Shown here: positions 27,486 through 44,338 of the stretch, piece by piece
How positions within the stretch are numbered: the first letter of the stretch is position 1
Layout: each line of letters begins with the position of its first letter
Position numbers and translations under genes: made by a program
Notes under the pieces: model-generated
Seen by the model: only the letters and a program-made list of their open reading frames with translations
Databases searched by the model: none
What the model was told of the DNA's origin: nothing
NCBI RefSeq assembly: GCF_913054185.1
Contig: NZ_CAJXIV010000009.1
Span: forward strand, 1 to 64,000
Reading direction: 5' to 3'
Length of the DNA stretch: 64,000 bases
Source: an uncultured Shimia sp.
Lineage (GTDB): Bacteria > Pseudomonadota > Alphaproteobacteria > Rhodobacterales > Rhodobacteraceae

Positions 27486-28177
27486 ACCTGCCCCACCTTC
27501 TTGGCAATGCGACGCGCAAGCACTTCAGACAGAATTAACGCTCCCGCAGCAACAATGATGCTCACAACCACAAGCCGCATCGCCGCGGTCTCTCCGCCGG
27601 GCACCTGCAAGAACGCGTAGATTGCACTTGGCAAGGTCCGCGTTTGGCCGGGAATATTGCTGACAAATGTGATGGTTGCCCCAAATTCGCCCATCGCTTT
27701 GGCAAACGCGAGCACCATTCCGGCCAGCAAGCCTGGCAACATCAACGGCAATGTGACCGTCGCAAACACCCACAAGCGCGATGCCCCCAACGTGGCAGCC
27801 GCCTGCTCCAGCTTGGGATCAGTCGCCTCGATTGAAAGCCGGATCGAGCGCACCAACAGAGGAAACGCCATAACGGCTGCCGCCAAGGCTGCCCCCGTCC
27901 AACGAAAGGCAAACACCACACCGATTTCTTTAAGCGCGCTGCCAATAAACCCCTGCGTGCCAAATGTCACCAGCAACAGATACCCGGTTGCAACCGGTGG
28001 AAGTACAAGCGGCAAGTGCACCAAAACGTTAACAAATTGCTTACCGAAGAAGTCCCAGCGCGCGAGTGCGTAGGCGACAAAAACTCCCGGCAATACAGCC
28101 CCCAACATTGCCCAAAATGCCACTTTCAGAGACAGCCCCACTGCGGCCCATTCCTGCGGCCCCAACCACTCGGTCAT
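27482..28177 (-). CDS. modB: Molybdate ABC transporter permease
   Basis: The 231-residue inner-membrane protein has five to six helices. VHLPLVLPPVATGYLLLVTFG is the ModB signature, and LPLMLPGLLAGMVLAFAKAMGEFGATITFVSNIPGQT is the conserved ABC-interaction EAA loop with the ModB GEFGAT motif. It lies between modA and modC, overlapping both by four bases. Confidence 0.96.
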   Translation of the reverse strand: MTEWLGPQEWAAVGLSLKVAFWAMLGAVLPGVFVAYALARWDFFGKQFVNVLVHLPLVLPPVATGYLLLVTFGTQGFIGSALKEIGVVFAFRWTGAALAAAVMAFPLLVRSIRLSIEATDPKLEQAAATLGASRLWVFATVTLPLMLPGLLAGMVLAFAKAMGEFGATITFVSNIPGQTRTLPSAIYAFLQVPGGETAAMRLVVVSIIVAAGALILSEVLARRIAKKVGQV

Positions 28178-29163: not shown

Positions 29164-30762
29164 TTACGGCTGCGACACATGCCCAGCCCCTGTGCGCGAC
29201 AACAAAGCTGGCAGCGCCGCGGACACAAAATACCGCGACAACAGTTGATACTCTTCCACTGACGCCTGCCCCGACAACGCTGTACCTTGGCGTGCCACCG
29301 TACCGGCGGCGGCCATTTCGGCCTCCAATTCTGCCAGAATTTGATCCACCATCGCGTTTTCAAACAAAACATGCGACGGTGTTGCAGCAATTTCTGTCTC
29401 GGTGCTTTGCACTGGAATTGCGCCAACCTGAGAGGGTTTGGCCCCATTGTTTGGATTCGCCAGCAAAATTGCCTGCGCTGTCTGTGCATCAAATCCCAGG
29501 TGTTGAACCAAATAGGTCATGCGGGCGCTGTTCTGATCCTGATCTGGCGCAGAAGAACCCGACATCGCGCCGTCTGGTCCCGGATTGCCCAAATGCACTT
29601 GCGGAGCTGAGTTGCTTAATGCGGCAAACACACCTGGTGCATTGGGCTGGAATTGAGACACCCGCACCTGCAGCCGCTCCATCGCCTCAAACAGCTTGTT
29701 CAACTCGGCCTGCGATGGTGGGCCAATAGGCTCAGCACCTTGCTGCGAAAACTGCTCCGAGGGTCTGGCACGCATCGTGCCCGCCTCTTGTGCCTCAACA
29801 AACAAGTCTTTCAACGTGGCCAATTCTCGTCGCAAAGTTTCAGCATCTAGCACGTTTGGTGCATCCGCATTGTAGGGTGACAGTACCGGCTGGATCGTCA
29901 ATGGTTGCACTTGCAGGGGCGGAAGAGTGTTGCTTTGCACCAAGGTGGTCTGCGGCGCTTGCGCAGAGTACGTGAGTGGGGCAGCCGAGGTTGCCGGCGC
30001 AATCCCGGTTGTCATTGGGGTTCCGTACCCCGGCGCAACCACTTGCGGCTGTGGCATCGGAGAGTTCCACGCCGCCGGTTGTGTCATTCCCCCAGCGCTC
30101 TCTGCATTTGGCACGGGCCACCCTCTTGGCAACACCGAATAATCCTGCCGCGCGGCAATCCATCGCAAATAGGCTGTAACAGCCGAAAACCCTTTGAGCG
30201 ACACCCGCCCAACTTCGGTGGCCCCCCGCCGGGTGCTCAGCTCCCCACCCGCGCCCAAAAGCAATTCAAGTTGCACATCTAATGGCTGTAAGATGCGCTC
30301 TGGCACCTGTATCTCCGAGACGCCCTCAGACACATAAAACATGTCGCCAGCCAACGCGTGTTCCAGTCGCATCTGCAGCTGCCCCCGCTCCGTCAGGAAC
30401 ACCTCAAGCCCGTCTTTACGCGCCGCACACGCAAAGGTGCGCGGTCGGCAGATCACCTCAAACACGTCCACATCCAACCGCGGCGTAGGGGCAAACCGCG
30501 CGTACCCGTCTGGGTCAAACCGAAAATACACCCCTTGCACCAACCCTTCTTGAAAGCTGGGCCAGCCAAACGCGCCCCGCAGCGCCTGTCGCGCCTCCCG
30601 CGCGCCAATCGCAAAAGGAATGGCCGTATCCAGGATGGCATTTTCCGAGGCAAACGCCTCAGCGCTCCGATCCTGACCCAATGCTGGTTGCGCCGCCACA
30701 AAGGACGCGGCGCCGGTCGAAGCGGCCAAGGAGAGAATTAGTACCTGCATGGTATGTCGCAT
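29164..30762 (-). CDS. Exported protein of unknown function in polysaccharide cluster
   Basis: The 532-residue protein begins MRHTMQVLILSLAAS, a signal peptide with cleavage near AQPALGQ. The first 200 residues are an ordered domain (ALRGAFGWPSFQEGLVQGVYF, then LDVDVFEVICRPRTFACAA with two Cys that may pair). The middle, about 210-300, is low-complexity Pro/Gln/Ala/Thr. A short coiled coil (LNKLFEAMERLQVRVSQF) follows, then a helical C-terminal domain. No family is recognised. It starts on the last base of the upstream DUF3131 stop (TAATG), so the two are translated together. A periplasmic or cell-surface role in polysaccharide handling is inference. Confidence 0.75.
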   Translation of the reverse strand: MRHTMQVLILSLAASTGAASFVAAQPALGQDRSAEAFASENAILDTAIPFAIGAREARQALRGAFGWPSFQEGLVQGVYFRFDPDGYARFAPTPRLDVDVFEVICRPRTFACAARKDGLEVFLTERGQLQMRLEHALAGDMFYVSEGVSEIQVPERILQPLDVQLELLLGAGGELSTRRGATEVGRVSLKGFSAVTAYLRWIAARQDYSVLPRGWPVPNAESAGGMTQPAAWNSPMPQPQVVAPGYGTPMTTGIAPATSAAPLTYSAQAPQTTLVQSNTLPPLQVQPLTIQPVLSPYNADAPNVLDAETLRRELATLKDLFVEAQEAGTMRARPSEQFSQQGAEPIGPPSQAELNKLFEAMERLQVRVSQFQPNAPGVFAALSNSAPQVHLGNPGPDGAMSGSSAPDQDQNSARMTYLVQHLGFDAQTAQAILLANPNNGAKPSQVGAIPVQSTETEIAATPSHVLFENAMVDQILAELEAEMAAAGTVARQGTALSGQASVEEYQLLSRYFVSAALPALLSRTGAGHVSQP

Positions 30763-32450
30763 TAGAAATCAGCCTTCTCTTGTACTGAATGACGCAAAGC
30801 CGGCAGCCAGTCGTCTTTCTGGGGGGGATCCGGATAATGGCGCAGCAATCGTATGTCTTGATCGCGGAACGCGGTGTACCAGACCTCAGTGTCGCCCGTG
30901 TAAGGCGTCAAAATTGTGCCCTGCACCTTGTGCAATAAGGCGGTGAGAATAATGCCATTGTTGTTGGCCGTAAAAATGCCAACCCGTCCCTGCCCGCGCT
31001 CATAGAGCCCTTCGTACATGCCATTTTCCGGGTCGTAGAGCTCGATCATCGCCTCATAGAGCACATCGGTGTACTCGGTCTCCCATAAGGCCCAGAGACC
31101 CAGCGCCGCCTTGGCCGCCACTGCGGAATGATCCGGGACGTAGTCGCCGCGTGGCGTCACAGTGTTCCACGGGTAGCCGTCTGAAAAAATTGTATCGTAG
31201 GTGAAATACGGCGGCCCTTTGACATTGTGTTCTGAACGCGCGGTCATAAACCCGGTCTGACGCCAACGGTTTTCCTGCACCTGATAGATCCGATCGGCAA
31301 ACTCGGCGCGCCACCCATCGGTATGCACCCACTCCGGGCTGCTGTCGTCATGTGGGAGATCAAAGCCCAGCTCCAACCCGTCTTGCAGGTAACTCTCTGT
31401 CACCACATAGTTTTGGGAGTGAAAAATCCGAGGGTCGCGGCCATCATACGGCACTTGAATACCAAAAATGGACGCTGTCAAAAACGGCTCGGCACGATGG
31501 GCCAATCGCGGCCGAAACCCCCAGAGCGCAAAACCTTTGGCTGCATATTCCTCATACCCCAGCCGTCCTTCTTGGGCATAGACCGTCTCATCTGTTTCCT
31601 TGTCGACATAAGCGCCAAACATAAGCCCTTCGTCGTCAATCACATTGCGAAAATCCCACTTCAGAAGCACGGAATCGATGGTGTTGGCCAAATAGGGGTA
31701 GCGATTTTTGTAAATCCGCATCCACACAAGAAAGCGCCCGATATCCAGTGCGGAAAATCCAATTTCACCCGGCTTATTGGTATAATCCACTTTTGCGCCG
31801 GTTTTGGTGTGATACACTTTGTTGGGCATCTCTTTGCGAAACAAATCCAAACCCTTGATGGTCGTCAACAACTGCGTGATGCGGCGGTCAAATTCTGGCT
31901 TTTCAATGAGGCACAACTCATAAGCGCTGACCAACCCTGCCATATAAGACGCGGTGTCCCACAGCGTGGTGGAGGGATAATTGCCCACGGAATTAGCCAA
32001 GCCGGTGGACTCCTGCGTAAACTGTTCAAAATAGTGCCACGCGACCTGCGCCGCTCGCAGGTCGCGCTCGTTTAGGAACCCACGGCGGCTGCGGTACTTG
32101 CGCACGTAAGCGTTGTGCTTGTCATAGCCATGCGGGGCGTTCTCCCCCCGCCGAAGGTCGTCAAAGAAGTCCGCAGGCATGTCGCACATGCGCGGTGGCT
32201 TTTCACGGCGTCGCTCATCGATGACCATACTACTGGTGACGCTGGGCAAATTTCCTCTCATAAGGGCGGGGATTTCATCCAACGCGCCCCCGGCTATGAT
32301 CGGAATGACCTCGTCTTCCTGAGCCAGAAACACACGGCGCGCAGACACGCCCACTGCGTAACTCGCCCCGGTGATACACACCACCACAAGACAGAACATC
32401 AAGACACCCACAATCGGGGCTCGCTTGCTGGAACCAACAGCACTCTTCAT
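30762..32450 (-). CDS. Membrane-anchored DUF3131 protein (large paralogue)
   Basis: The start is placed at the ATG at 32450 (MKSAVGSSKRAP) with GGAG eight bases upstream, giving 562 residues. One membrane helix (VGVLMFCLVVVCITGASYAVG) anchors it, with the body outside. From about residue 125 the DUF3131 fold follows: AWHYFEQFTQESTGLANSVG, then TLWDTASYMAGLVSAYEL, ALDIGRFLVWMRIY, EGRLGYEEYAAKGFALWG, and near the end NNNGIILTALLHK. It looks like the (alpha/alpha)6 barrel of glycoamylase-like enzymes. Conserved acidic residues are present but the catalytic pair cannot be assigned. A polysaccharide lyase, hydrolase or epimerase role is inference. Confidence 0.85.
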   Translation of the reverse strand: MKSAVGSSKRAPIVGVLMFCLVVVCITGASYAVGVSARRVFLAQEDEVIPIIAGGALDEIPALMRGNLPSVTSSMVIDERRREKPPRMCDMPADFFDDLRRGENAPHGYDKHNAYVRKYRSRRGFLNERDLRAAQVAWHYFEQFTQESTGLANSVGNYPSTTLWDTASYMAGLVSAYELCLIEKPEFDRRITQLLTTIKGLDLFRKEMPNKVYHTKTGAKVDYTNKPGEIGFSALDIGRFLVWMRIYKNRYPYLANTIDSVLLKWDFRNVIDDEGLMFGAYVDKETDETVYAQEGRLGYEEYAAKGFALWGFRPRLAHRAEPFLTASIFGIQVPYDGRDPRIFHSQNYVVTESYLQDGLELGFDLPHDDSSPEWVHTDGWRAEFADRIYQVQENRWRQTGFMTARSEHNVKGPPYFTYDTIFSDGYPWNTVTPRGDYVPDHSAVAAKAALGLWALWETEYTDVLYEAMIELYDPENGMYEGLYERGQGRVGIFTANNNGIILTALLHKVQGTILTPYTGDTEVWYTAFRDQDIRLLRHYPDPPQKDDWLPALRHSVQEKADF

Positions 32451-32633
32451 CAAACACACTCCAAACGGAATACATCCATATAAACCGAAAATGGTTAAGA
32501 ATTGGCAACTTCGATATTATCCCCATAAATTAACGATATTGGACAAAATAAGAACAAAAAATAAAACGCAAACACCTCCTTAACCTAAGATCGATATTCT
32601 TTCCATGTTCTTTGAGTAACCGGGTATTGTTTT
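32451..32633. promoter_or_regulatory. Divergent AT-rich promoter with three CGATATT repeats
   Basis: The 183 bases between the DUF3131 and ABC genes are markedly AT-rich compared with neighbours. CGATATT occurs three times on the plus strand (32512, 32534 and 32592), and TTAACC lies at 32580. No ORF fits. Confidence 0.5.
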
Positions 32634-34607
32634 ATGTCTCATGATCGCGCGCTGCCTGACCTACCCCTGGATGCCATTGGCACCGTTTCAAATGAGCCAA
32701 GTGCCTTTCGGGATCGTACGGTGCCCATGTGGACCCATGGGGTGTCATTTCTGTTTTCGTTTGGTGGCGGCATATGCCTCCTCGCAGTCGCTATTTTTGT
32801 TGTGTTTTTTTACGAACTTGTGGCGCAGGAGGGGCAACGCATTCTTGCGGTTTTACTTGCCTTGGGGACCGTGGTGCCAATCCTGGGCATTCTGATTTTT
32901 GATGTTGGACACGCCCGGGCGTTATCCGGCTACCGCCACATCCGAAAGCGCAACGCCGTGACCGGTCAGGCCCTTGTTGCGGTGCTGGCGGGAGGGGTGT
33001 TTGGCTTTCTGCACCCGTTGATGGCAGCCCCCTTTGTTATCGGTGGTGTATTGAGCTGGCTTCTGTGTAGCATGGCCGCCCGATGGACCCGCCGCGAACC
33101 CATGTGGGAGTTTTTGCCACAAGAGGCCGCCAGCTTCCTGTCCGGGCGAGATCAAAGAGCCATTGATTTGGCAAACGCCGCCCGCGGCGACAGCGCAGTA
33201 CTGGAAGGGCTGCAGAAAGTGCTGAGCCTTGGTGCGCTTATCGCAGGTTTTGCTGTGGCCAGCTGGCTCTCCGCCAACGAGGTCATCAACATCGCGGCCA
33301 TCGCCACCATTGCGTTGGTGACATATTGGTCTGTGGACGCGTTTTTTGCCTATTTCCGCCAACGCTCCGTGGCAGATCCCGAACGCTTTGGCCGCGCCGA
33401 AGAGGTTGTGCTTTTACCCCCACCCTATTCTGCGGACCCGGAAGGGGACAACACCGCGCTTGTAGTGCACCATTTATCTGTTCGTACCGCGAACGGAGCG
33501 TCCCTTCTGTCCGATGTGTCCTTTCGCGTTGAGCCGGGCGAGGTGATTGGCCTCTCCGGCGACAGCTTTTCCGGCAAATCCCTTTTGATGCAGGCCCTGC
33601 ACGCGCCACATGACCTTACCGGATTACAGGTTGAAGGATATGTCGCCTTGCAAGGCGCCTCTCTTTGGGGGCGCACTGGCAAAGACCGCCCCGTCCAAAG
33701 TGTGATGGTGCCTCCGGGCACTCTGGCGGTGCCGGGTGGCGGCGCGGCAAACCTATCCTGCTTTTGCGGAGACGCGCACTTGGACCGAGCCCGCAAAGCC
33801 CTGCAATCTTTGGTCTTTACCGCGGACACCGTGTCTCGAATTCTCAATGCATCCGATGTACGCCATCTCTCTCGCACGGAGCAAAAAGCCTTGTCTCTGG
33901 CACGCGCATTGGCACTGCGCCCTGGGCTATTTTTGATCGACCGCCCCGAGGATGGTGCCAGCGAAAGCTTGCTTGCGGCCCTTGGTGACCGACTGCGCTC
34001 TGAGGCCCGACTGGGCCATACCACATTGCTCGCCACCGAAAACCGCCAGCTCCTGGAACGCTGCGACCGCTTGTTAATGATGCAAAACGGGCGCGTGATT
34101 GAATTTGCCTCAACTGCAGAAATCCGGGCCCGATTGTCTTCCGGTTGGAGCCGTTTTGTCACCACACGAGAGCTGGACAATGAAGAGGCACTGGATGCCT
34201 GGCTGTGTAGCCAATTTCGCCGCGACGGGGACGAAGGAAACCGCCGCGCGGTCTGTATGGTTGCCAATGAAATGCTGGCGGTGGCCTGCCAGGCGCCAAG
34301 CGATAACAATCTCCACGCCGACGACGTCTCGTTTGAATTCAAACACTTTGTGGGACAGTGCCAGCTGCGCTTGATTGACCCTCGCCTGGCTCTGTCCTCT
34401 GGCGCCATGCAAAAAGCCCGGGTCGCCGCGGACACCTCCGTCGAAGGCGAGCGTTTGTCGCCACTTGCCAAAATCATGCGCGACAGCCTCGAAGTCGAAA
34501 CCGGTGGCGAAGAAGGGCATGGCTATCTTCAGGTCACAATGAAGACCTATGATCCTCGGCTGCAGGAAAACCGCAAAGGGCATGCCGATGCACCGTCCCA
34601 AACTTGA
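32634..34607 (+). CDS. Membrane ABC protein with degenerate ATPase motifs
   Basis: The 657-residue protein has about six membrane helices in residues 35-240 (for example ICLLAVAIFVVFFYELV and GALIAGFAVASWLSANEV), then an ABC domain (about 270-490) and a C-terminal domain of about 165 residues. Walker A is normal (SGDSFSGKSLL), but the Q loop reads VMVPPG, the signature reads LSRTEQ, Walker B is LFLIDRPED with Arg for the catalytic Glu, and the H loop has TEN instead of TH. ATP may bind but hydrolysis should be poor. The last domain, with ANEMLAVACQ, faintly recalls an RsbW/HATPase fold. Its stop overlaps the HlyD-like gene, which implies an exporter pair, probably for the polysaccharide. Confidence 0.7.
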   Translation: MSHDRALPDLPLDAIGTVSNEPSAFRDRTVPMWTHGVSFLFSFGGGICLLAVAIFVVFFYELVAQEGQRILAVLLALGTVVPILGILIFDVGHARALSGYRHIRKRNAVTGQALVAVLAGGVFGFLHPLMAAPFVIGGVLSWLLCSMAARWTRREPMWEFLPQEAASFLSGRDQRAIDLANAARGDSAVLEGLQKVLSLGALIAGFAVASWLSANEVINIAAIATIALVTYWSVDAFFAYFRQRSVADPERFGRAEEVVLLPPPYSADPEGDNTALVVHHLSVRTANGASLLSDVSFRVEPGEVIGLSGDSFSGKSLLMQALHAPHDLTGLQVEGYVALQGASLWGRTGKDRPVQSVMVPPGTLAVPGGGAANLSCFCGDAHLDRARKALQSLVFTADTVSRILNASDVRHLSRTEQKALSLARALALRPGLFLIDRPEDGASESLLAALGDRLRSEARLGHTTLLATENRQLLERCDRLLMMQNGRVIEFASTAEIRARLSSGWSRFVTTRELDNEEALDAWLCSQFRRDGDEGNRRAVCMVANEMLAVACQAPSDNNLHADDVSFEFKHFVGQCQLRLIDPRLALSSGAMQKARVAADTSVEGERLSPLAKIMRDSLEVETGGEEGHGYLQVTMKTYDPRLQENRKGHADAPSQT

Positions 34608-35760
34608 TCTTCACCCGCCGCGCAGCCTCAATCCCTTGCAATGGATGTGGGTGTTATGGGCGCTTTTGGCGACAAGCCTTTTGGTGATCAGCGCTTGGGC
34701 TTTTGCCGCCCGCTTTCCGGTACAGTCCGCGCGCAGTGTCGTTGGCTCCTTTGAAAGCCAAACGCCCTCTGTTGACGTGGTTTTGCCGGCTGGCGTCACT
34801 CTGACAGAAGTTCTGATTATTGATGGTGATCAAGTTGTTGCAGGGCAAAAGCTCGCGAGACTGGACCAAATTGCGCTCCATGAGCTGCTCCACCGACTGC
34901 GCGCAGATCTCGCGGAAAATGCAGCCGAAAGCACGTGCTGGCGGGATCCCTCCCTCCCCCCCGCAAGCTCCGGAGAAGCGCTCTCGACAGCGCTGCAGTC
35001 CTGTCACAACGCCAAACGTCACCAGCAACTGGCGCGGGAGCAACTGATGCACCGCCGCTTTAGCCTGCAACGCGAAACCGCGCTTGCCGTGCGCGAACTG
35101 GTCTTGCGCGCAAAAAATACGCCAGCGTCTGTGCAAAAAATCCTGATGCTGCGTGCCGCGGTGGAGCGGGAAACCCTCAACAGTGTGGTGCGCGATGTGG
35201 AGTTTGAATTGGCTGACCTTATTCAATCTCAAGAGGCCAGTCGTCTGCAGCAGCTAACTGCGTTGGAGGCGGACTCCGCTGCCTTGCACACTCGCTTGCT
35301 GTCTCTGGAAGAGATCGCCGCGGATCCATGGCTCTACGCCCCACAGGGCGGGCGGATCGAGCGCCTCCGCCGGCTGCCGGACACCGCCGGGCGGGCTTGG
35401 AATGTCACTTTGGCGCAAATTCAAACAGACGCCCCCAATACGTATCAAGCCCGGTTTGTGATCCCGATGTCAGAAGCGGACACCCTCCATGTTGGGGATC
35501 CGTTGTTTGTCACCCTGGCAGGTATACCGGTGCCGCAAAACCGCTTTCCAGCCCGCGTGCAAACCATCAAGAGCATGGGCACCAACGCAAGCAACACCAG
35601 CGAAGTGCTTGTGCGCCTGTCCACGCCAAACCAACAAACACAAGACGCGCTGCGCACCCTGCCTGCAGGCACACGCTCTTCCATGCAGGTCGACCTGCCA
35701 GCGCAACAGCTTGGTAGCCTCTTAAGCGCGGCAACTGACCGCCTGACACAGTCGTTTTAG
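34588..35760 (+). CDS. HlyD-like membrane fusion / periplasmic adaptor protein
   Basis: I start at the ATG at 34588 (MHRPKLDLHPPRSLN), seven bases after AAAGGG, giving 390 residues and a 20-base overlap with the ABC gene. One membrane helix (WVLWALLATSLLVISAWAFAA) is followed by a biotinyl-lipoyl-like half (LPAGVTLTEVLIIDGDQVVAGQKLARLD), a long helical hairpin (about 110-260, with LHELLHRLRADLAEN and QQLTALEADSAALHTRLLSLEE), and a beta-barrel tail (VGDPLFVTLAGIPVPQNRFPARV). This is the adaptor topology of type I secretion and of alginate/cellulose-type export. No outer-membrane TolC partner is encoded nearby. Confidence 0.82.
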   Translation: MHRPKLDLHPPRSLNPLQWMWVLWALLATSLLVISAWAFAARFPVQSARSVVGSFESQTPSVDVVLPAGVTLTEVLIIDGDQVVAGQKLARLDQIALHELLHRLRADLAENAAESTCWRDPSLPPASSGEALSTALQSCHNAKRHQQLAREQLMHRRFSLQRETALAVRELVLRAKNTPASVQKILMLRAAVERETLNSVVRDVEFELADLIQSQEASRLQQLTALEADSAALHTRLLSLEEIAADPWLYAPQGGRIERLRRLPDTAGRAWNVTLAQIQTDAPNTYQARFVIPMSEADTLHVGDPLFVTLAGIPVPQNRFPARVQTIKSMGTNASNTSEVLVRLSTPNQQTQDALRTLPAGTRSSMQVDLPAQQLGSLLSAATDRLTQSF

Positions 35761-35788
35761 CTCGCCAGCCACCCCACCCGTGATTTGA

Positions 35789-35829
35789 CAATAGAAAAGC
35801 CCCGGAACCACACCGGAGCTTTTCTATTG
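35789..35829. terminator. Bidirectional terminator
   Basis: CAATAGAAAAGC...CCGG pairs with CCGG...GCTTTTCTATTG (stem about 16 bp, one mismatch) between the convergent HlyD-like and DUF3131 genes. Confidence 0.85.
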
Positions 35830-35865
35830 CAGCACTTTTCTTGCCCTTAGGATTTGCGACCGCCG

Positions 35866-37188
35866 TCAATCAACCAACAGCAATGGCCCTTTGTGTTTAT
35901 AGTGCAGGGCTTCCAAAACAACCGCATTGGTGTTCAAGGTCAGCGCCATATTGACACGGCCATCCACCTCATATTGCCCCGCATACCAGCCGTGTTCACC
36001 AGCCAGATGATCCAGACCACCTACCACCTCCTCTGTATACGGGGTCCCATACAGGGCCTGCCAGGCAAACGCGGCTTTCAAACTGACAGTCCTGAGCACA
36101 TCATGCGCGCTGCCGTCCTCGGCCAACACCGCCCAATCTGCCCCGTTGCCAAAAACTGCCCCGTACAAAAAATGCGGCGCCTGATCAATGTGATCTTCGC
36201 TCACCATAGTGATCTTGCCAGTCCGTTTTGCCCGCGCCTCCTGTGCCTGATACAACCGACTGGCCAAAAGCCGCCCCTCTGCGTTCAAACCTGTTTCAAA
36301 CGCTTGCAAAACATAAGGCTCACTGACCACTGGTGTGATCGCTCCAAAATCTTTGGCACGCCGTCGATCGATGGCAATGTTTACGCCTGACACCTCTTCC
36401 CACGCCATGATTGGGCGCGCAGTGCTTGCGCCCAACACATCCAATCCCCAGAGCGCGGCCGCCCGTGCACCATACTGTTCATAGCCAATACGCCCTTCCT
36501 GATGATATCGTGTTTGGCCGTCCTGCCGGCTACTACCCCAAAGACGCCCCTCAGCGGTCATCGCTGCCAGGTCCCAGGTTGCAAGCAGCGCCCGAATGCG
36601 CGGGCCGTATTCCGGCGTTTGGATCTCCAGAATACGCAAGGCCATAAGCAGCCGCGCCACATCCAGCGCAGACCAGCCGATGCCCTCCGGCACCGGGGTG
36701 TTGGCATAGTCCACCATGGCAAGACTGCGGGTATCATAAGCCTTATTTGGCAGCTGCCCCTCAAACAGAGGCAAGCGCTCCAATCCGCTCAAAAACGCGG
36801 CGCTGCGGCTTAAAAATTTGCCGTCATCCACAATCCCCAGGCCCTTTGCAGCCAGAAGCGCCATAAGATAGCTGCCTTGATCCCAAAGGGTTGCGCTGGG
36901 GTGGTCGTGGATGGCATCGACAAGCCCGGTTTCAGCCCGGTAATGGCTTTCGAAATACCGCCAAGCCGTCTCGGCAGAGCGCCAATCCTGTGTTGTCATT
37001 CCAAGACCAGGTTTGGGCTGAAGCCCCTCGGCTTGTGGCAGTTGCGCCAAGCCGGTGTCACGCATAACGCGGCCCCAACTGTCTTGTTGCACCGCAATCC
37101 CTGCTGTCAGCAAAAGCCCGGTGAGGAACGCAAAGCTTGCCCGATTGGGCCGAACCGGGGCGTCAGTTCGAATAGGACTGGACGACAT
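35866..37188 (-). CDS. Exported DUF3131 protein (small paralogue)
   Basis: The start is the ATG at 37188 (MSSSPIRTDAPVRP), eight bases after GGAG and overlapping the GT2 stop by 26 bases; the track ORF begins too early. The 440 residues begin with a signal-anchor (FAFLTGLLLTAGIAVQQ). The DUF3131 core is complete: AWRYFESHYRAETGLVDAI, TLWDQGSYLMALLAA, ALDVARLLMALRIL, EGRIGYEQYGARAAALWG, LNTNAVVLEALHYK. It is clearly homologous to the larger protein at 30762, with the same order of blocks. Coupling to the glycosyltransferase suggests it acts on the growing or exported glycan. Confidence 0.85.
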   Translation of the reverse strand: MSSSPIRTDAPVRPNRASFAFLTGLLLTAGIAVQQDSWGRVMRDTGLAQLPQAEGLQPKPGLGMTTQDWRSAETAWRYFESHYRAETGLVDAIHDHPSATLWDQGSYLMALLAAKGLGIVDDGKFLSRSAAFLSGLERLPLFEGQLPNKAYDTRSLAMVDYANTPVPEGIGWSALDVARLLMALRILEIQTPEYGPRIRALLATWDLAAMTAEGRLWGSSRQDGQTRYHQEGRIGYEQYGARAAALWGLDVLGASTARPIMAWEEVSGVNIAIDRRRAKDFGAITPVVSEPYVLQAFETGLNAEGRLLASRLYQAQEARAKRTGKITMVSEDHIDQAPHFLYGAVFGNGADWAVLAEDGSAHDVLRTVSLKAAFAWQALYGTPYTEEVVGGLDHLAGEHGWYAGQYEVDGRVNMALTLNTNAVVLEALHYKHKGPLLLVD

Positions 37189-39022
37189 GATGCATCTCCG
37201 CTGTTCTCTGTTGAGGAGCTGTTGTGTGGTCATGGGGCAATCGCGCAGGTGGCCGCCAGCGCGCCATTTGGACAGCACGCACCACAAGGTTCATGTTCAC
37301 GCTCAACCAAAACAGGTTCACCCACAGCAGTGACGCACTGTAGCCGGGAGCGTTTTGCACGGTTTGCCAAACACCAAAGACGGCCGCGCCCCCCATGACA
37401 GCCAAAAGGGTCACATGCGGCCAGACATGTCGCATGTTTGGCGTGCCCTCAGCACCGGGCAACTTGGGTGTTGGGGCAAACTGGGGCGTTTGGCGACGTA
37501 ACACACAAAAAAGCGCGCGCAGCTGCACTGGCAGCGCCACAACCGTCATGACACGTCCAGCGCCAATGGCGTGTCCCTTACAAGCCGCAACCATGGCCAA
37601 TTCTCCCAAGACCACCGCAGGCAAGAATCGTTGAAAGAACTCAACCGAGTAGGCCGAAACCGGGGCCAATCCCATGACGAGGGACACCACCGGCGCCAAC
37701 AGCAGGACCGGCGCCCATAGGATGCTCACATAAGACCAAAACGTCGCCCCATAATGCAGCTTTTGACGCCAGTTCAACCCTTTGCGAAACAGAGGATTGT
37801 CCCAGATCGCGATGTCAAACGTGCCACCGGCATATTTGAGCCGCTGCGCTGCCCAGGCGGACATACTCCACGGCGACAACATGCGTGCTTCCACCTGTGG
37901 GTGGTAAACCGAAGTCCACCCTGCCGCTTGATCTGCGTGCAGCAAAATCGACGTGGAAAGGTCTTCGGACACGTGAAACCGGTATGGCTGTAAGAGATGT
38001 GCCGCCAAGTGGGCCTGAGTGCCCAAACGAATTTTTGTCACGTCCCTGCTTATCGAGTGTGCCTTGTCCCGCAAAGCGGCGTCAAACACCGCTTCTCGGC
38101 GATGAATGGACGCCGCCCCGCAACAAAATGAGGCGCCGTTTCGATTTCGCCGTCGCTGGATCACATCAAAAAAAACACTTGGGTCAGATAAAAAGGGATC
38201 CCGCCCAACGCGGCCCTGTCCACTCATCCAAGTCAAAACCCGCGCGCTCAGGCGCGTACACCAGCTTTCTGCTTTGGGAAACGCCCGTAACCAACGTGGG
38301 CTTTGGCGTGTTACCCATCTCTGCCAGCTCTCCCCGTCCGGCAGGTCGTAAAACCAATGCGGCGTCTGCACCCAGGCGACTTTTGGATCACAAAAATAGC
38401 CCAAAGTGTTCTGCAAAAACGTCGGCAGCAGCCTTGTGTCCGCGTCACAAATCACCACAAAATCCCCGGATGTGCGCAACAGCGCATGCCGCAAGTTGCC
38501 CGCTTTAAACCCCTCATTGGTTTGCCGAGAAAAATAGCCAATGCCGCGCCGCTCCGCTTCCAAAGCCATCTCAGCTCGATCGCCGTCATCCAACAAACAC
38601 ACGCGTATCCGTACCCCGTGAGGCACGTGCACAGCCAACAGCGCCTCCAACGAGGGGCGCACCACTTCAAGCGGTTCGTCATAAGTTGTGACGAAAATAT
38701 CCACGGAGGTTGTTGTGGAGTGCGGCGCGTGCCAGGGATGACCATCCAAAACCGCGACAAAAGGCGTATCCCCCTCATCCCAAATGTCGAAGTAAAACAA
38801 CAACGTACCCAAGAAAAACAAACTCTCCGCAGTGGCCACAAAAACGGAAAATACAAATGCGTCCGGATTTAGGGAGGCGGTCCAGCGCCAGTGCAAATAG
38901 GCCGCGCCCGCGGCAATGGCTGCGCCGGCCAGAAAGTGCCAAACCCACCGGCGCCAGGCCCCGAGAGGCGTGTAGATGGGAGCTTGACGATGGGAAAACA
39001 TCTCAAAATACGACTTTGTCAT
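37163..39022 (-). CDS. Processive GT2 glycosyltransferase, cellulose-synthase-like
   Basis: The 619-residue inner-membrane enzyme has two N-terminal helices (VWHFLAGAAIAAGAAYLHWRW and FVFSVFVATAESLFFLGTLLFY), a GT-A domain, and four to five C-terminal helices. Catalytic landmarks are VDIFVTTYDEPLEVV, CLLDDGDRAEM, VICDADTRLLP (DxD), VSEDLSTSI (the TED-type base) and QRLKYAGG where BcsA-like enzymes have Q-x-x-R-W. No PilZ domain follows the membrane region, so direct c-di-GMP activation as in BcsA is unlikely. It should polymerise a beta-linked hexose polymer and translocate it. GGAGG lies ten bases before the ATG. Confidence 0.88.
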   Translation of the reverse strand: MTKSYFEMFSHRQAPIYTPLGAWRRWVWHFLAGAAIAAGAAYLHWRWTASLNPDAFVFSVFVATAESLFFLGTLLFYFDIWDEGDTPFVAVLDGHPWHAPHSTTTSVDIFVTTYDEPLEVVRPSLEALLAVHVPHGVRIRVCLLDDGDRAEMALEAERRGIGYFSRQTNEGFKAGNLRHALLRTSGDFVVICDADTRLLPTFLQNTLGYFCDPKVAWVQTPHWFYDLPDGESWQRWVTRQSPRWLRAFPKAESWCTRLSARVLTWMSGQGRVGRDPFLSDPSVFFDVIQRRRNRNGASFCCGAASIHRREAVFDAALRDKAHSISRDVTKIRLGTQAHLAAHLLQPYRFHVSEDLSTSILLHADQAAGWTSVYHPQVEARMLSPWSMSAWAAQRLKYAGGTFDIAIWDNPLFRKGLNWRQKLHYGATFWSYVSILWAPVLLLAPVVSLVMGLAPVSAYSVEFFQRFLPAVVLGELAMVAACKGHAIGAGRVMTVVALPVQLRALFCVLRRQTPQFAPTPKLPGAEGTPNMRHVWPHVTLLAVMGGAAVFGVWQTVQNAPGYSASLLWVNLFWLSVNMNLVVRAVQMARWRPPARLPHDHTTAPQQRTAEMHHVVQSYSN

Positions 39023-39053
39023 TGCGTTTCAGCCTCCGTTGGCCCTGTGATCT

Positions 39054-39893
39054 TCAGCGCGCGTTTGCCTGCTGGTGATCGCGCACAAACATGTCCACAA
39101 CACGCATAATTGCATCCGCCTCTGTTCCCTGATGGTCCTTTGCCGTGGATCCTGTGGAGTAAGACCAAACACCGGCGGCAACTTTGATCCGTAGATCCCG
39201 GGTCAACAGCACCTCCTGCGACAAACTGGCAAAAACCGAATATTCGTATTTGCATAAATCGCTTGGATCGGAGAATGAAAAATAGAGGTTCAAGGTGGGT
39301 TGGCCTGGCACAAGATGAAGCTGATCTTGAGGGACAATCCGAATGCCTGCAGCCGTGAGTTTGGCGTCAAAGGCTTTTTGCAGCTGGCGCCCAAATGTTC
39401 CATCAAATCCAGGCGGAGGCTTAAGGGTTGTCAGGTCTAGGTGCAGCTTCTTAACCCCCCGTAATACCTCTCCTTTTTCAGACCTTGGCAAAGCCTTCGG
39501 GTCAAAACCAAGGCTCAAATCAGCCTGACTTTTCAGGCAAACTTCCGGCGCTTCGGGATGGTCACGCGGCAGGCCTCCTGCTTGATTTCCGCCATCACGC
39601 ACACCAAACAATCGATAGATGAAGCCTGTGTTGCTGGTGTCCAAAGGGCGGCTGGAAAAGCTGCGCCGCTCCTGACACTGCGCGCCGCCTGGGCAATGTG
39701 TGCCAACAAAGGTAACCCGCTCCCACAAAATCCAAAACCTGTCCTGTGCAGAAGCTGCGGTAACAGAATCGGCCTGCGCCTGCTGGCTCATAAAAACGAT
39801 ACAGGCTCCGGTCAGTCCAGTTTGCCCCACCCATCGGAAAATTCGCCGCCAAGCCATTTCGGTCAGCCGCTGCAGGTGTCTGATTTGCCTCAT
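39054..39893 (-). CDS. Exported protein of unknown function between nucleotidyltransferase and GT2
   Basis: The 279-residue protein overlaps the upstream stop by four bases (ATGA). A signal-type segment (WVGQTGLTGACIVFMSQQAQADS) is followed by a single domain with several Cys (THCPGGAQCQERRS, DHPEAPEVCLKSQ, DLCKYEYSV) suggesting disulfides. HLDLTTLKPPPGFDGTFGRQL and LNLYFSFSDPSDLCKYEYSVFASLSQEVLLTRD look like a beta-sandwich with a helical part. I recognise no family. Being inside the GT2 operon, a periplasmic accessory role is likely but unproven. Confidence 0.75.
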   Translation of the reverse strand: MRQIRHLQRLTEMAWRRIFRWVGQTGLTGACIVFMSQQAQADSVTAASAQDRFWILWERVTFVGTHCPGGAQCQERRSFSSRPLDTSNTGFIYRLFGVRDGGNQAGGLPRDHPEAPEVCLKSQADLSLGFDPKALPRSEKGEVLRGVKKLHLDLTTLKPPPGFDGTFGRQLQKAFDAKLTAAGIRIVPQDQLHLVPGQPTLNLYFSFSDPSDLCKYEYSVFASLSQEVLLTRDLRIKVAAGVWSYSTGSTAKDHQGTEADAIMRVVDMFVRDHQQANAR

Positions 39894-41401
39894 CGCGCGC
39901 CTCCGCCAGCCTGCCGTACCACGGGTTGAGGCTGCATCAATGGCGCCCCATCCTGAAGAGGCTCAACCGCAATGCCGTCAAGCGGCGTGTGCGGTTGCGC
40001 ATGGCTGTCCATGTACCGATGATCAAGCGCCCAATCAGGTGCCACAATCATGTCATCAACCCAGGTGCCCGCATTTATGCGGGTTTGTGCACACACCACC
40101 GACCGGCGCACCAAGCTGCGCCGACAGGCCCGTGCCCCGGCGCCAAGCACAACTGGTCCCTCCAGCTTTGCGCCAGCTTCCACCACCGCATCGGCGCCGA
40201 TAAAGGCGGGCCCAACAATCACCGCGCGCGGCGAGACGTCCGCTCCATCTGCGGCCCAGACGTGCCGCCGTATCAGCTGCCCGTTTGGCATCAGGTCGGG
40301 GATAAGCCCGCGCAGCCCGCGAGACAGGCCGGAGAAATAGTCGTTTGGGTTGCCCAGATCGATCCAACTGAACGGAGCGTCATAGACCTGCAAGTGTCGC
40401 CCGGCAGCCAAAAGACTGGGCAGCAAATGTTGCGCGATGTCTTGCTCAGACTGCGCTGACACATGTTTCAGAACTCTTGGGGCAAATACATAAATGCCGC
40501 TGCTGGCCAGACAGGATGGGGCGTCTTTGGGCGCTGGTTTCTCGGCAAACCGACAAATACGTCCAGAGCGCTCTGCGTCAATGATGCCATACTTCTGCAC
40601 CTGGGCGGGCGGCACGTGCTGGGCGGCTATTGTCACATCCGCACCACTGGCGCGATGCTGCGCCAACAATGCCGCCACATCGATATTGGTCACCGCGTCG
40701 CCGCAAAACACCAGGAAATCCTCGTCAAACGCACGGGTGGTGCGCTGCAGATGGCGCAGGGTGCTGGCCGACCCAAGCGGAGCGGATTGCCATTGATCAC
40801 CGTGCCACTGGCCTTCGTTCAAAAATTGGAAACTGCGCAATGGCGAGCTGCGCACATGCGCGTGGAACTGAGGGGCTAGGTGTCCGGGATTAAGGATAAA
40901 GTCCCTGATCCCAAACGCCGACAGGTGTCGCAGCACATGGTCCAGCACCGGCCGCCCAAGAAAGTCGAGCAGCGGTTTGGGGGTGTCATGGCTAAGCGGC
41001 GCCATGCGCGCGCCTTGTCCTGCGACCAAAATCACAGCCTTAACGCCGGTCAATTGCCGGGCGCGAAACACCGGAGCCGCAAGCGCGTCTTTGCGGGTTT
41101 TAAACACCCTCAGCAATCTGGACAAAGTGCACTTTGAGATTTCCTTTTGAACGCGCTCGCCCGCCCCAAAAAAGCCAACCGCCATCTGATGTGGCGCTTC
41201 ACTTTGAAACTCGACCAAAGCCGCAAGACCAGACCGTGCAATCCGGCGCACCGCGCTAAGATCCACCAAAATGGCCGAGCGCCCACGGGCGGCACATTGG
41301 GCTTCTGCAGCCTTCAGTGTGGCATAGTCGGCCGAGGTCAGCCGTGCCGCAGCGATCTTCAGGATCGAAATCATGCCGACATCTTCAGAATTGGTAAGCA
41401 T
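39890..41401 (-). CDS. STAS domain fused to sugar nucleotidyltransferase
   Basis: The 503-residue protein starts at the ATG after a strong AAGGAGACCCCT. Residues about 10-110 form a STAS domain: ARGRSAILVDLSAVRRIARSG then LAALVEF; the usual D-S-S-G phosphosite reads A-R-S-G. From about 118 it is a nucleotidyltransferase: VKAVILVAGQGARMAPLSHDTPK (signature GxGxR), KPLLDFLGRPVLDHVLRHL, FCGDAVTNIDV (metal Asp), FAEKPAPKD, DLGNPNDYF. A left-handed beta-helix tail (SPRAVIVGPAFIGADAVVEAGAKLEG) follows. It resembles mannose-1-phosphate guanylyltransferase/glucose-1-phosphate thymidylyltransferase types and should make the NDP-sugar for the GT2. Confidence 0.85.
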   Translation of the reverse strand: MLTNSEDVGMISILKIAAARLTSADYATLKAAEAQCAARGRSAILVDLSAVRRIARSGLAALVEFQSEAPHQMAVGFFGAGERVQKEISKCTLSRLLRVFKTRKDALAAPVFRARQLTGVKAVILVAGQGARMAPLSHDTPKPLLDFLGRPVLDHVLRHLSAFGIRDFILNPGHLAPQFHAHVRSSPLRSFQFLNEGQWHGDQWQSAPLGSASTLRHLQRTTRAFDEDFLVFCGDAVTNIDVAALLAQHRASGADVTIAAQHVPPAQVQKYGIIDAERSGRICRFAEKPAPKDAPSCLASSGIYVFAPRVLKHVSAQSEQDIAQHLLPSLLAAGRHLQVYDAPFSWIDLGNPNDYFSGLSRGLRGLIPDLMPNGQLIRRHVWAADGADVSPRAVIVGPAFIGADAVVEAGAKLEGPVVLGAGARACRRSLVRRSVVCAQTRINAGTWVDDMIVAPDWALDHRYMDSHAQPHTPLDGIAVEPLQDGAPLMQPQPVVRQAGGGAR

Positions 41402-41428
41402 AGGGGTCTCCTTGATCTTAGGGCACGT

Positions 41429-42580
41429 TCAGGCTTTGCCTGGGCGACGCAGCAAAGGGAACTCAGGCAGAGAGCCCAATCCCACTGTCCACGCGGTCAA
41501 CTTGTGGTGGCTCAGCGTCCAGACGAAACAACCAGTTGCGGGAAGCGTCCAGGCAAGTTCCAACACAACCGACTGACTTGGCGTGACATCCCGTCCTGCC
41601 AAAGCCATTTCTGCAAGATCCAGAAAAACCGGATGGCACAGATAGAGCCCAAACGCATATTTTGAAAGCCGCGACAGCCCGGCCGGCCAGGCCTTATGGG
41701 CCAGGGTCAGGCACAAAATCAAAAGCGCAACTGGCATCAGATAGTCCGCCCAAAAGGCTAAAGGATTGTCATACACCCAGCGGCCAGTTGCGATCACTTT
41801 GACCGTGCCAATCAGTTTGAGGACAAGCAACACACTCGCAGTCAGGGCAATTGGCCCAACCCAGGTTTGCCGCTCTACTGCCGTGGTTTGGCGCCACAGC
41901 CCCAAAACCGCACCTGCCGCCATGCCGTAGCCAAGGTAACTCAGCACCTTGAGGGCGCGCACCGCATAGCCAAGAATTTCCGTGTCCCACAGGGCGGCAT
42001 ACAGCAGAGGGTCTACCAGTTGCTTCAGCAGCAAGGCTGGCACCACAAACAAGCCCATCATTGGCCTGCGTTCTGCCACCTCAAACAGTGGAAAAAACAG
42101 CAAGAGCGCAAACAGCGTTGGTATAAAATGCATGTGATACTTCACATCCCCCAACAGCAGATACCCGGCCCAGGTGACTGGCTGTTGAAGCGCGGCAAAA
42201 ACCTCAGCCTCATACCCCAATGACCTGGCCTTCAGCAGGTTGTAAAACGCATAAGCCGCGGTCCAGAACACAAAAGGGATCAACAGCCGACGTGCCTGCT
42301 CAGCCATCACTGTTCCATAACTGCGGGGGCGCCGGGAAAGCGTCATCAACAGCAACATTATCGAGATCATCAAAAACAGTTCCGTCCGCGCCGTATACAG
42401 CAGCGCGCGCAGCACCATAGGCGCTAAGCGCGCCGCAGGATCCGCCTCCGGGAACGGCTGCCCTTGAGCATCCGCTGTCACATGCAGCCCAACCATCGAC
42501 ACGCCTGCAAATAGGCGCAAGGCGTCGATCCAGGTGTGCCGCCCCGTATCAGGACCATCTGCAACCATGCAGTTCACCAT
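41429..42580 (-). CDS. Acyltransferase 3 family membrane protein
   Basis: The 383-residue protein has about ten membrane helices. The N terminus HTWIDALRLFAGVSMVGLHV is the acyltransferase-3 opening with the active-site-type His, followed by LFLMISIMLLLMTLSRRPRSYG and RLLIPFVFWTAAYAFYN, and the late LSRLSKYAFGLYLCHPVFLD. Such proteins transfer acetyl or succinyl groups to exopolysaccharides at the membrane. It is the first gene of the operon that continues with the STAS-nucleotidyltransferase (27-base gap), so it probably decorates the same polymer. The start may be 12 bases further in. Confidence 0.88.
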   Translation of the reverse strand: MVNCMVADGPDTGRHTWIDALRLFAGVSMVGLHVTADAQGQPFPEADPAARLAPMVLRALLYTARTELFLMISIMLLLMTLSRRPRSYGTVMAEQARRLLIPFVFWTAAYAFYNLLKARSLGYEAEVFAALQQPVTWAGYLLLGDVKYHMHFIPTLFALLLFFPLFEVAERRPMMGLFVVPALLLKQLVDPLLYAALWDTEILGYAVRALKVLSYLGYGMAAGAVLGLWRQTTAVERQTWVGPIALTASVLLVLKLIGTVKVIATGRWVYDNPLAFWADYLMPVALLILCLTLAHKAWPAGLSRLSKYAFGLYLCHPVFLDLAEMALAGRDVTPSQSVVLELAWTLPATGCFVWTLSHHKLTAWTVGLGSLPEFPLLRRPGKA

Positions 42581-42723
42581 TTACCAAACAAACAACACAT
42601 TCAGTGTCACTGCCAAACCTGAACAAAAAGTGAACAAATGCGCATTTGTTTTTATTTTGTTCTAGTTTCATTAACCGCTTCGCAACAGTTTGTTCTTACC
42701 CTGTCGGGGCGAGGAGTGTTGTT

Positions 42724-43257
42724 ATGTGTGTCTTTCGGTTCCCCCATCTGCTGATACTGGTTTTGCTCGGCGTTTTTGATCCAAGCGCTGCAACTGCGTT
42801 GAATGAAACGGAACTTTGTGCCCGTGCCGTGGAACAATACGGCGTGGAACCCACGCAATGTGGTTTGCCCAGCGCCGGATCGCCGTCGTCTTCTCCAACG
42901 GCCCTGTCCAATGAAGTGCTGGAAAGCCACATTTTTTTTCCACAAGGCGGCACCAGTTTGAATGACGATGCACAGGTACAGCTTGCGGTGTTGCTGTCCG
43001 TGCTGAACACGTCTGTGATGCAATCCGCCTGCCTGCGCCTGATTGGCCACTCTGACAGCAGCGGTGGTGAGGACGCAAACAAAGCACTGGCGCTCAAACG
43101 GGCCGAAACGGTGGCCGCCGCCTTGCGCGACGGGCTGAAAGACCCTTCGCGCATCCGCACCGTTGGCTCCGCAGGCGAAGCACGGCCTTTGTCCGGTTTG
43201 GAAAGCACGTCCGTACATAACCGCCGCGTGGAAATTCAGGCCAAGACCTGCCCTTAA
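42724..43257 (+). CDS. OmpA-family outer membrane/peptidoglycan-binding protein
   Basis: The start is the ATG at 42724 (MCVFRFPHLL), with GAGGAG upstream, giving 177 residues; the track start lies in the promoter. A signal peptide (LLILVLLGVFDPSAATA) is followed by a short linker and a C-terminal OmpA domain: IFFPQGGTSLNDDAQVQLAVL, LRLIGHSDSSGGEDANKALALKRAETVAAAL, GEARPLSGLESTSVHNRRVEI. Asp and Arg of the diaminopimelate site are present (HSDSSG, NRRVEI). It may link the export machine to the cell wall. Confidence 0.85.
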   Translation: MCVFRFPHLLILVLLGVFDPSAATALNETELCARAVEQYGVEPTQCGLPSAGSPSSSPTALSNEVLESHIFFPQGGTSLNDDAQVQLAVLLSVLNTSVMQSACLRLIGHSDSSGGEDANKALALKRAETVAAALRDGLKDPSRIRTVGSAGEARPLSGLESTSVHNRRVEIQAKTCP

Positions 43258-43305
43258 CGCGGCAAACGGCTTATAACGGCAAATCCGCCGTATTCATTAA
43301 CCACG

Positions 43306-43334
43306 ACGCGCATTAACCAACGCGCGCGTTTTTT
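43306..43334 (+). terminator. Probable terminator after the OmpA-family gene
   Basis: ACGCGC (43306-43311) and GCGCGT (43324-43329) form a short GC stem directly followed by TTTTT. It lies 48 bases after the stop. It overlaps a TTAACC motif in the loop. Confidence 0.5.
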
Positions 43335-43408
43335 CTTGCCCTCCAGCCCTGCCTGATGATTTCAAAGGTGTGGAAATAGTCCATTAACCTTAATCGGGTG
43401 GGGGCCTG

Positions 43409-44197
43409 ATGCGTGGGATACTCGAAAGCTGGCGCAGATTGCGTCTTGGCTTGGCTGTGGCTTTAGCGGCGGCCAACCCAGCGCTGGCTGATCCAATCAA
43501 CGGATTTAGCGAACAGTTTGCGCAGCCACCTGAGGCCGGTTGGCATGTTGCACATTACACCTTCATCCACCCGGCATTTGACACCGACTGGAGCCGCAAA
43601 AATCTGCGATTTGATCAAGGGCTGCATCTGTCTGTGACGCCGCAGACCTCCGCAGAAAACCGCTTTCTGGGGGCTTCAATCCGGCGTGAAACGCCAAGTC
43701 ACTATGGCCGCTACGAGGCAGTTCTGCACCCGGCGCGCGGGGACGGCATAGTTACCGGTTTTTTCACCTATACCGGCCCGCACTATGGCACCCGGCATGA
43801 TGAAATCGACATAGAGTTTCTCGGACAAGATACCACCCAGGTTCAGGTTGCCTGGTTTGTGGACGGCCACCTCAGGAGCCGTAAAATCCCCCTAGGGTTT
43901 GACGCCGCTGATCACCCACGCCGTTACGCCTTTGAATGGCATCCGGATCGCTTGCGGTGGTTTGTCGAAGACACCATGATTTTCGAAGTGACCGAGGCAG
44001 AGTCCCCACTGCCAAAGGAACCAGGTTATTTGTTTGCCAATCTATGGGCAGTGGACAAAAGCGTCGCCTCTTGGGCTGGCGTGGCCGCAGATGGAACCTC
44101 CGCACAGGCTTATGTCGGCCACATGCAGTTCGCCCCACTTGTCACGCTTACTTCAAGCTTGCAAACAACACACACCGCCGCACAGTCCACACCGTGA
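43409..44197 (+). CDS. Secreted GH16 glycoside hydrolase (endo-beta-glucanase-like)
   Basis: The 262-residue protein has a signal peptide (LRLGLAVALAAANPALADP) and a GH16 jelly roll. The catalytic motif HDEIDIEFLG contains the E-x-D-x-(x)-E nucleophile and acid/base. Upstream GASIRRETPSHYGRYEAVLH and downstream WHPDRLRWFVEDTMIFEV and LFANLWAVD are GH16 blocks. Enzymes of this type (ExoK, ExsH) trim beta-1,3/1,4-linked exopolysaccharide during biosynthesis. Its presence at the end of the cluster suggests the polymer contains beta-glucan or a similar linkage. GGGGG precedes the ATG. Confidence 0.92.
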   Translation: MRGILESWRRLRLGLAVALAAANPALADPINGFSEQFAQPPEAGWHVAHYTFIHPAFDTDWSRKNLRFDQGLHLSVTPQTSAENRFLGASIRRETPSHYGRYEAVLHPARGDGIVTGFFTYTGPHYGTRHDEIDIEFLGQDTTQVQVAWFVDGHLRSRKIPLGFDAADHPRRYAFEWHPDRLRWFVEDTMIFEVTEAESPLPKEPGYLFANLWAVDKSVASWAGVAADGTSAQAYVGHMQFAPLVTLTSSLQTTHTAAQSTP

Positions 44198-44212
44198 CCC
44201 AGCCATTGCGGT

Positions 44213-44338
44213 TTAATAATCCGTGAAAAACCCAAAGGGTGCCACAGTCGCAAATCCTCTTTCGGCGGAGCCCGTCGCAGCCATTGTCGACACCGCCATA
44301 ACCGTCAGAACCACAAACATCATCGCGCGTTTTTGCAT
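44213..44338 (-). CDS. Small secreted peptide, 41 residues
   Basis: MQKRAMMFVVLTVMAVSTMAATG is a complete signal-like helix and SAERGFATVAPFGFFTDY a short mature tail. AGAGAGGA lies seven bases before the ATG, a convincing ribosome-binding site. It is too short for the ORF track, which lists only a plus-strand shadow. It is convergent with the GH16 gene (15 bases between stops). No family is recognised. Confidence 0.55.
   Translation of the reverse strand: MQKRAMMFVVLTVMAVSTMAATGSAERGFATVAPFGFFTDY

Follow-up and report, generated by a model that had tools for sequence, protein, structure and literature searches.

Background

The bacterial cellulose system (BcsA, BcsB, BcsZ and BcsC) combines a family 2 glycosyltransferase (GT2) that carries the DDG, DxD, ED and gating-loop motifs with BcsZ, a periplasmic (alpha/alpha)6 glucanase of family GH8 whose gene lies close by. 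The bgsBA system of Sinorhizobium meliloti pairs a BcsA-like GT2 that lacks PilZ (PMC5567048), keeps the QxxRW motif and has a C-terminal cyclic di-GMP-binding region with an HlyD-like periplasmic adaptor, whereas Cgs/NdvB is a single protein of about 2800 amino acids (aa) that unites GT84, cyclization and GH94 domains. Here we analyze a stretch of 64,000 nucleotides from the 4.04 Mb genome of an uncultured Shimia sp. (assembly GCF_913054185.1, contig NZ_CAJXIV010000009.1, positions 1 to 64,000; hereafter, the window), in which eleven genes at 29164-44197 make up a cluster whose polymerase clade, processing enzyme and accessory proteins set it apart from each of the named systems tested. Like Bcs, the cluster encodes a GT2 with the DDG, DxD, ED and gating-loop motifs and, nearby, predicted periplasmic (alpha/alpha)6 barrel proteins; unlike Bcs, it lacks PilZ, BcsB and BcsC, has QxxKY in place of QxxRW, contains barrel proteins of the DUF3131 family that are nearer to beta-1,2-glucanases than to BcsZ, and includes an acyltransferase, an ABC/HlyD pair and an OmpA-domain protein. 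With bgsBA, it shares a BcsA-like GT2 without PilZ and an HlyD-like periplasmic adaptor. In place of the single Cgs/NdvB protein, it has separate GT2 and DUF3131 genes.

In our assessment, the chances are evenly balanced that this cluster encodes a synthase-dependent beta-glucan pathway, one Rhodobacterales branch of a wider, uncharacterized family built around a QxxKY GT2 and DUF3131. A first-pass annotation of the same DNA had put the gene set forward as a candidate undescribed system, and no functional description of this system was found in the open-access literature. What appears to be new here is the QxxKY GT2 clade, the predicted fold and kinship of DUF3131, the conserved degeneration of the ABC protein and the loss of a nucleotidyltransferase motif.

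Gene content of the cluster

Open reading frame (ORF) and family scans of the window identified the following genes.

29164-30762, minus strand: secreted protein, 532 aa, no known family (ORF and family scans)
30762-32459, minus strand: DUF3131 protein a, N-terminal membrane anchor and (alpha/alpha)6 barrel (PF11329, 391 bits)
32634-34607, plus strand: degenerate ABC protein, transmembrane region and nucleotide-binding domain (ABC_tran family match)
34549-35760, plus strand: HlyD/membrane fusion protein-like periplasmic adaptor, 403 aa, overlapping the ABC gene (HlyD_3, 25.8 bits)
35866-~37188, minus strand: DUF3131 protein b, 440 aa from the likely ATG, N-terminal hydrophobic anchor (PF11329, 421 bits)
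37163-39022, minus strand: GT2 polysaccharide synthase, 619 aa, without PilZ (Glycos_transf_2 match and motifs)
39054-39893, minus strand: predicted periplasmic protein, 279 aa, no known family, conserved Cys (ORF and family scans)
39890-41401, minus strand: STAS domain fused to a sugar-1-phosphate nucleotidyltransferase, with a C-terminal extension (STAS, 29.6 bits; NTP_transferase, 125 bits)
41429-42580, minus strand: Acyltransferase-3 membrane protein, 383 aa, predicted to acylate the polymer (PF01757, Acyl_transf_3, 101 bits)
42646-43257, plus strand: OmpA-domain protein, putative cell-wall anchor (PF00691, 41.7 bits)
43409-44197, plus strand: secreted GH16 protein, licheninase-like (PF00722, 106 bits)

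All the genes named in the first-pass annotation were found where it had placed them. The three facing operons that it described are actually four transcription units (29164-32459, minus; 32634-35760, plus; 35866-42580, minus; 42646-44197, plus), which form two divergent pairs, the first with the second and the third with the fourth. The start of the DUF3131b gene overlaps the stop of the GT2 gene. Among named relatives, Shimia sagamensis is the nearest at this locus, with a GT2 that is 85% identical.

A distinct clade of cellulose synthase-like polymerases

Judging by sequence, the window GT2 is BcsA-related: the superfamily hallmarks, namely DDG, DxD (here DAD), ED, the hydrophobic helices and the gating loop FxxTxK, are all retained. 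In this family, SED replaces the usual TED, and the acceptor motif is QxxKY. In an alignment of 85 family members with 17 other GT2s, QxxKY is present in 85 of the 85 and in none of the outsiders, which carry QxxRW (RxxRW in OpgH). In BcsA, it is the QxxRW Trp that stacks on the acceptor glucose (PMC6821405), so QxxKY represents an altered acceptor site.

Phylogenetic analysis by a quick method, in which the OpgH and PgaC branches are very long, placed 65 members in a single clade (support 100) on a long stem, apart from BcsA and BgsA; within it, the window GT2 belongs to a Rhodobacterales subclade of 42 rows (support 99). The protein scores 187 bits against the CelA model (TIGR03030), far under the cut-off of 699, and has no PilZ match, while BcsB (PF03170) is absent from the whole genome; on PilZ and BcsB the first-pass annotation was right. 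Membership in Bcs and in BgsBA was rejected on the absence of BcsB, PilZ and QxxRW and on the tree, and the cluster does not belong to the Bcs, Alg, Pel or Wzx/Wzy type. The only other CelA-like match in the genome, an unrelated glycosyltransferase of 671 aa, was considered as a second cellulose synthase-like GT2 and rejected: it is weakly BgsA-like and shows no match to the window GT2.

DUF3131 and the beta-1,2-glucan enzymes

An AlphaFold2 model of DUF3131a, built from 41 sequences (mean predicted local distance difference test score, 84.6), was compared with the PDB using Foldseek. The best matches are GH144, GH189 and GH162 (E-value 2e-10, probability 1.00), and the 19 best are all beta-1,2-glucanases, similar structural-genomics entries or the Cgs cyclization domain; BcsZ (GH8) is a weaker fold match (E-value 1.4e-3). 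The modeled fold is thus an (alpha/alpha)6 barrel closest to structures of the SGL clan (GH144/162/189/192-194). Sequence comparisons point in the same direction: the GH189 domain 8wy1 is matched in hmmsearch (E-value 1.7e-5), hhalign links DUF3131 to Cgs sequences at 94%, and the Pfam DUF3131 model matches frames of Cgs size, about 2800 aa, in dozens of genomes at profile positions 2-91.

In profile alignment, the invariant S236-A-L-D239 of DUF3131 corresponds to the S-S-V-D motif of Cgs, the Asp of which is the counterpart of the catalytic E142 in CpSGL (PMC10901819). The SGL clan further shares a conserved general-acid Glu along with Phe and Tyr (PMC12102758). The invariant E303 in GRLGYEEY of DUF3131 resembles the MFEY general-acid motif of Cgs by sequence, but the alignment leaves E303 unplaced owing to an insertion in Cgs; direct profile alignment of the C-terminal half of DUF3131 with Cgs and GH144 is not significant, so the general-acid assignment rests on motif resemblance. 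Compared to Cgs, DUF3131 is a separate membrane-anchored protein rather than a domain, with neither GT84 nor GH94 (the family scan detected no GH94 match in the window cluster) and with less than 15% identity in structural alignments. Both DUF3131 proteins open with a positively charged stretch followed by a hydrophobic segment, which suggests a periplasmic catalytic domain. We predict that DUF3131 folds like, and is distantly related to, the beta-1,2-glucan enzymes and the Cgs cyclization domain, and that DUF3131a is a periplasmic beta-glucan hydrolase or transglycosylase.

A second kind of DUF3131 protein, 820-1160 aa long with the domain at the C-terminus, was noticed at L147:1-2625 and L149:121-2598 and in about 28 of the 397 family genomes, mostly in genomes without a QxxKY GT2. 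One has a weak polysaccharide-deacetylase match upstream, and these proteins possibly belong to another polysaccharide system.

Conservation of the cluster in Rhodobacterales

A GT2 scan of named genomes yielded 75 loci, onto which all window proteins were mapped. The comparison across Rhodobacterales that the first-pass annotation had called for shows the same genes adjoining one another in about 40 loci. One block consists of the OmpA gene next to acyltransferase-STAS-nucleotidyltransferase-(279 aa)-GT2-DUF3131b, and the other of (532 aa)-DUF3131a next to ABC-HlyD. The two blocks stay together while their relative orientation flips between genera (Shimia, Thalassovita, Phaeobacter, Sulfitobacter, Actibacterium, Planktomarina and others); thus, linkage has been kept despite rearrangement.

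Within the 40 loci of the window type, orthologues were counted as lower bounds, given that several loci end at contig ends and ORF calling was crude: at least 40 for DUF3131, 38 for OmpA, 37 for GT2, 36 each for the STAS-nucleotidyltransferase and the acyltransferase, 30 for the 532-aa protein, 27 for the ABC protein, 22 for the 279-aa protein and 19 for HlyD. DUF3131a ranks among the best-conserved proteins of the set, and DUF3131b adjoins GT2 in almost all window-type loci whose contig extends that far. A GH16 gene lies near GT2 in at least 18 of the 40 and is found in loci of related clusters as well. Among the 397 family genomes, a strong DUF3131 match is present in 31 of the 32 with the GT2 versus 4 of the 365 without it (Fisher p about 1e-40, a value that is indicative only, the genomes being phylogenetically related). 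This gene grouping exceeds chance.

Related clusters in other bacteria

The system reaches beyond Rhodobacterales, with related clusters in Gammaproteobacteria and other groups. A plasmid search recovered GT2 relatives with 40-45% identity; by annotation, such sister neighborhoods, found in Pseudooceanicola, Paracoccus, Rhodobacteraceae SC52, Pantoea and a Salmonella plasmid, combine the GT2 with two to three DUF3131 genes, an acyltransferase or OpgC gene, and genes for a SpoIIE phosphatase, STAS and HATPase. In some of them, the acyltransferase position is filled by OpgC, which is a glucan succinyltransferase. A Sphingobium locus contains the GT2, the three switch genes, BcsS and GH16. For Klebsiella pneumoniae, a published list includes an accessory "block 3b" with a corresponding gene content, for which it gives no tested function (PMC12974863). 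This block, likened by the published listing, and the Pantoea and Salmonella-plasmid clusters share with the window a cellulose synthase-like GT2 (QxxKY in Pantoea and Salmonella) and possess three DUF3131 genes, OpgC and partner-switch regulators, whereas the window cluster has no OpgC, SpoIIE or HATPase genes nearby and includes the STAS-nucleotidyltransferase fusion, the ABC/HlyD pair, OmpA and two novel secreted proteins.

Of the 15 sister loci, 11 contain SpoIIE genes, compared to none of the 40 window-type loci, and we accordingly rejected a SpoIIE/HATPase partner switch beside clusters of the window type. The only strong SpoIIE phosphatase match of the Shimia genome is located on another contig (G000:C18:30183-30794), which also carries a nucleotidyltransferase gene (C18:47160-47867), possibly part of another surface-glycan locus. 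The Paracoccus liaowanqingii sister cluster encodes a TPR protein with a PgaA-like outer-membrane barrel (L006:16326-18449), a candidate export porin.

Degenerate and novel accessory proteins

The ABC protein has an intact Walker A motif, whereas the Walker B Glu is replaced by Arg (DRPED) and the H-loop His by Glu. Across 24 aligned rows, the window protein among them, Walker A is mostly retained, the Walker B sequence is D[RQ]PE and another residue stands in for the H-loop His. The window ABC protein and its aligned orthologues have therefore lost residues expected of a type I secretion exporter, and the conserved loss of catalytic residues suggests a structural or regulatory role. Identification of the HlyD-like protein as BgsB was rejected because the two show no significant sequence match.

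In the STAS domain, the phosphorylatable DSxG motif is replaced by ARSG and is variable among orthologues, so that the Ser characteristic of SpoIIAA-type antagonists is absent. The fused nucleotidyltransferase resembles both UTP-glucose- and mannose-1-phosphate enzymes; that of the window keeps GxGxR, and its best PDB relative is the UTP-glucose-1-phosphate uridylyltransferase 8x7s (E-value 1.8e-52). Among about 36 orthologues, 11 have lost GxGxR (L015, L018, L020, L030, L031, L034, L037, L038, L039, L043 and L046), with the gene still in place.

The GH16 protein is predicted to be a licheninase of the bulge-less type with the ExDxE catalytic motif: the motif DEIDIEF is intact in the alignment to 1byh, the best PDB match (E-value 9e-35), and the protein scores 165 bits against the BglS model and 125 bits against ExoK, both under the cut-off. 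In the 532-aa protein, the N-terminal region of about 200 aa is nearly invariant (DTSIPFAIGAREARQ..GVYFRFDPDGYARF), the Q/P-rich middle is variable and the rest varies freely; the N-terminal domain has no relative detected in Pfam or the PDB, and its structure model is of low confidence. Pfam scans over all members of the 532-aa and 279-aa families returned nothing consistent. Distant relatives of the 279-aa protein, with 23-26% identity (L019:13251-14033, L027:5654-6496 and L026:10325-11038), are encoded away from the usual position upstream of GT2, suggesting a wider uncharacterized family.

Proposed pathway and alternatives

From the observed gene content, conservation and motif changes and a predicted fold, we infer the biochemical activities, sugar, linkage and secretion as follows. 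The STAS-nucleotidyltransferase would supply, or would once have supplied, nucleoside diphosphate glucose and/or serve as a regulatory or scaffold subunit. By homology with BcsA, the GT2 would polymerize the sugar in the cytoplasm and extrude the chain by way of a channel that it forms itself. As glucan hydrolases or transglycosylases, the two membrane-anchored DUF3131 proteins could then process the chain as it emerges into the periplasm, and the acyltransferase would decorate it. The degenerate ABC/HlyD pair, OmpA and the two novel secreted proteins may form an envelope complex, and the secreted licheninase-like GH16 would trim or release the polymer. The product would most likely be a (1,3;1,4)-type or other beta-glucan.

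Several observations weigh against this beta-glucan pathway. The sugar and linkage may differ from those of any known beta-glucan, the acceptor-stacking Trp being replaced. The hydrolases give conflicting hints on linkage: kin of the GH16 cut beta-1,3/1,4-glucans and those of DUF3131 act on beta-1,2-glucans, which GH16 enzymes are not known to cleave. Substrate supply cannot be the general role of the nucleotidyltransferase, given the loss of GxGxR among its orthologues. Finally, the family scan recognized no outer-membrane porin or channel in the window cluster. Of the first-pass proposal of a synthase-dependent exopolysaccharide, a coherent synthase-dependent polysaccharide cluster stands, whereas the "exo" part has to be qualified in view of the missing porin, the Cgs kinship and OpgC in sister clusters.

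These same features are the starting point of the principal alternative, which we consider unlikely: a split cyclase or periplasmic-glucan pathway, the product of which would be an oligosaccharide rather than a biofilm polymer. The overlap of the DUF3131b gene with the end of the GT2 gene also fits such an arrangement. However, GH94 phosphorylase is lacking; the anchors place the DUF3131 catalytic domain, by prediction, in the periplasm, whereas the Cgs domain is cytoplasmic; the secreted GH16 and the OmpA/peptidoglycan-binding partners suggest a surface polymer; and the P. liaowanqingii cluster includes the PgaA-like TPR/barrel gene.

Decidedly unlikely, in our estimate, is an equivalent of rhizobial BgsBA that makes mixed-linkage (1,3;1,4)-beta-glucan, in which the HlyD-like protein would correspond to BgsB and GH16 would be the lichenase. 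The proximity of the GH16 to lichenases and ExoK, the periplasmic adaptor beside the synthase in bgsBA-type loci too and the shared lack of PilZ are in its favor, but the window GT2 is only 26.5% identical to BgsA and falls in a separate, well-supported clade, BgsA retains QxxRW, the adaptor shows no significant match to BgsB, and the annotation around two BgsA-like loci includes no DUF3131. A product built from a different sugar (for example, mannose or an amino sugar), in which case GH16 and DUF3131 would be general envelope glycan remodeling enzymes, would accord with the altered acceptor site and the dual resemblance of the nucleotidyltransferase, but is very improbable given that the two hydrolase families encoded here both indicate beta-glucans and that the UTP-glucose enzyme is the best PDB relative of the nucleotidyltransferase by a wide margin.

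Beyond the beta-glucan pathway as such, a bolder proposition, which we regard as doubtful, is that the QxxKY GT2 and its DUF3131 partners represent a new class of machinery for glucan synthesis. In this view, a polymerase whose acceptor site has been rebuilt would work together with separate periplasmic transglycosylases resembling clan GH-S to make a previously unknown acylated glucan, possibly cyclic or containing beta-1,2 linkages, with help from an ABC protein that has lost catalysis and a nucleotidyltransferase that now serves as a scaffold. If the beta-glucan pathway is real, it would be a widespread, unstudied polysaccharide pathway of marine roseobacters that is also present on enterobacterial plasmids; DUF3131 would gain its first testable function, as a glucan hydrolase or transglycosylase; and the QxxKY polymerase would be a natural experiment on how the acceptor site sets sugar and linkage in cellulose synthase-like enzymes.

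Flanking and occasional genes

The cluster is flanked by molybdate-transporter-like genes (26400-28962) and a chemotaxis-receptor-like gene (44497-46284), both named from sequence only. In other genera, the window-type loci include genes that are not part of the window cluster: a protein with a peptidoglycan-binding domain is encoded in 15 of the 40 (for example, L015:13288-14613) and a caspase-like C14 protein in 11 (for example, L024:15011-15862).

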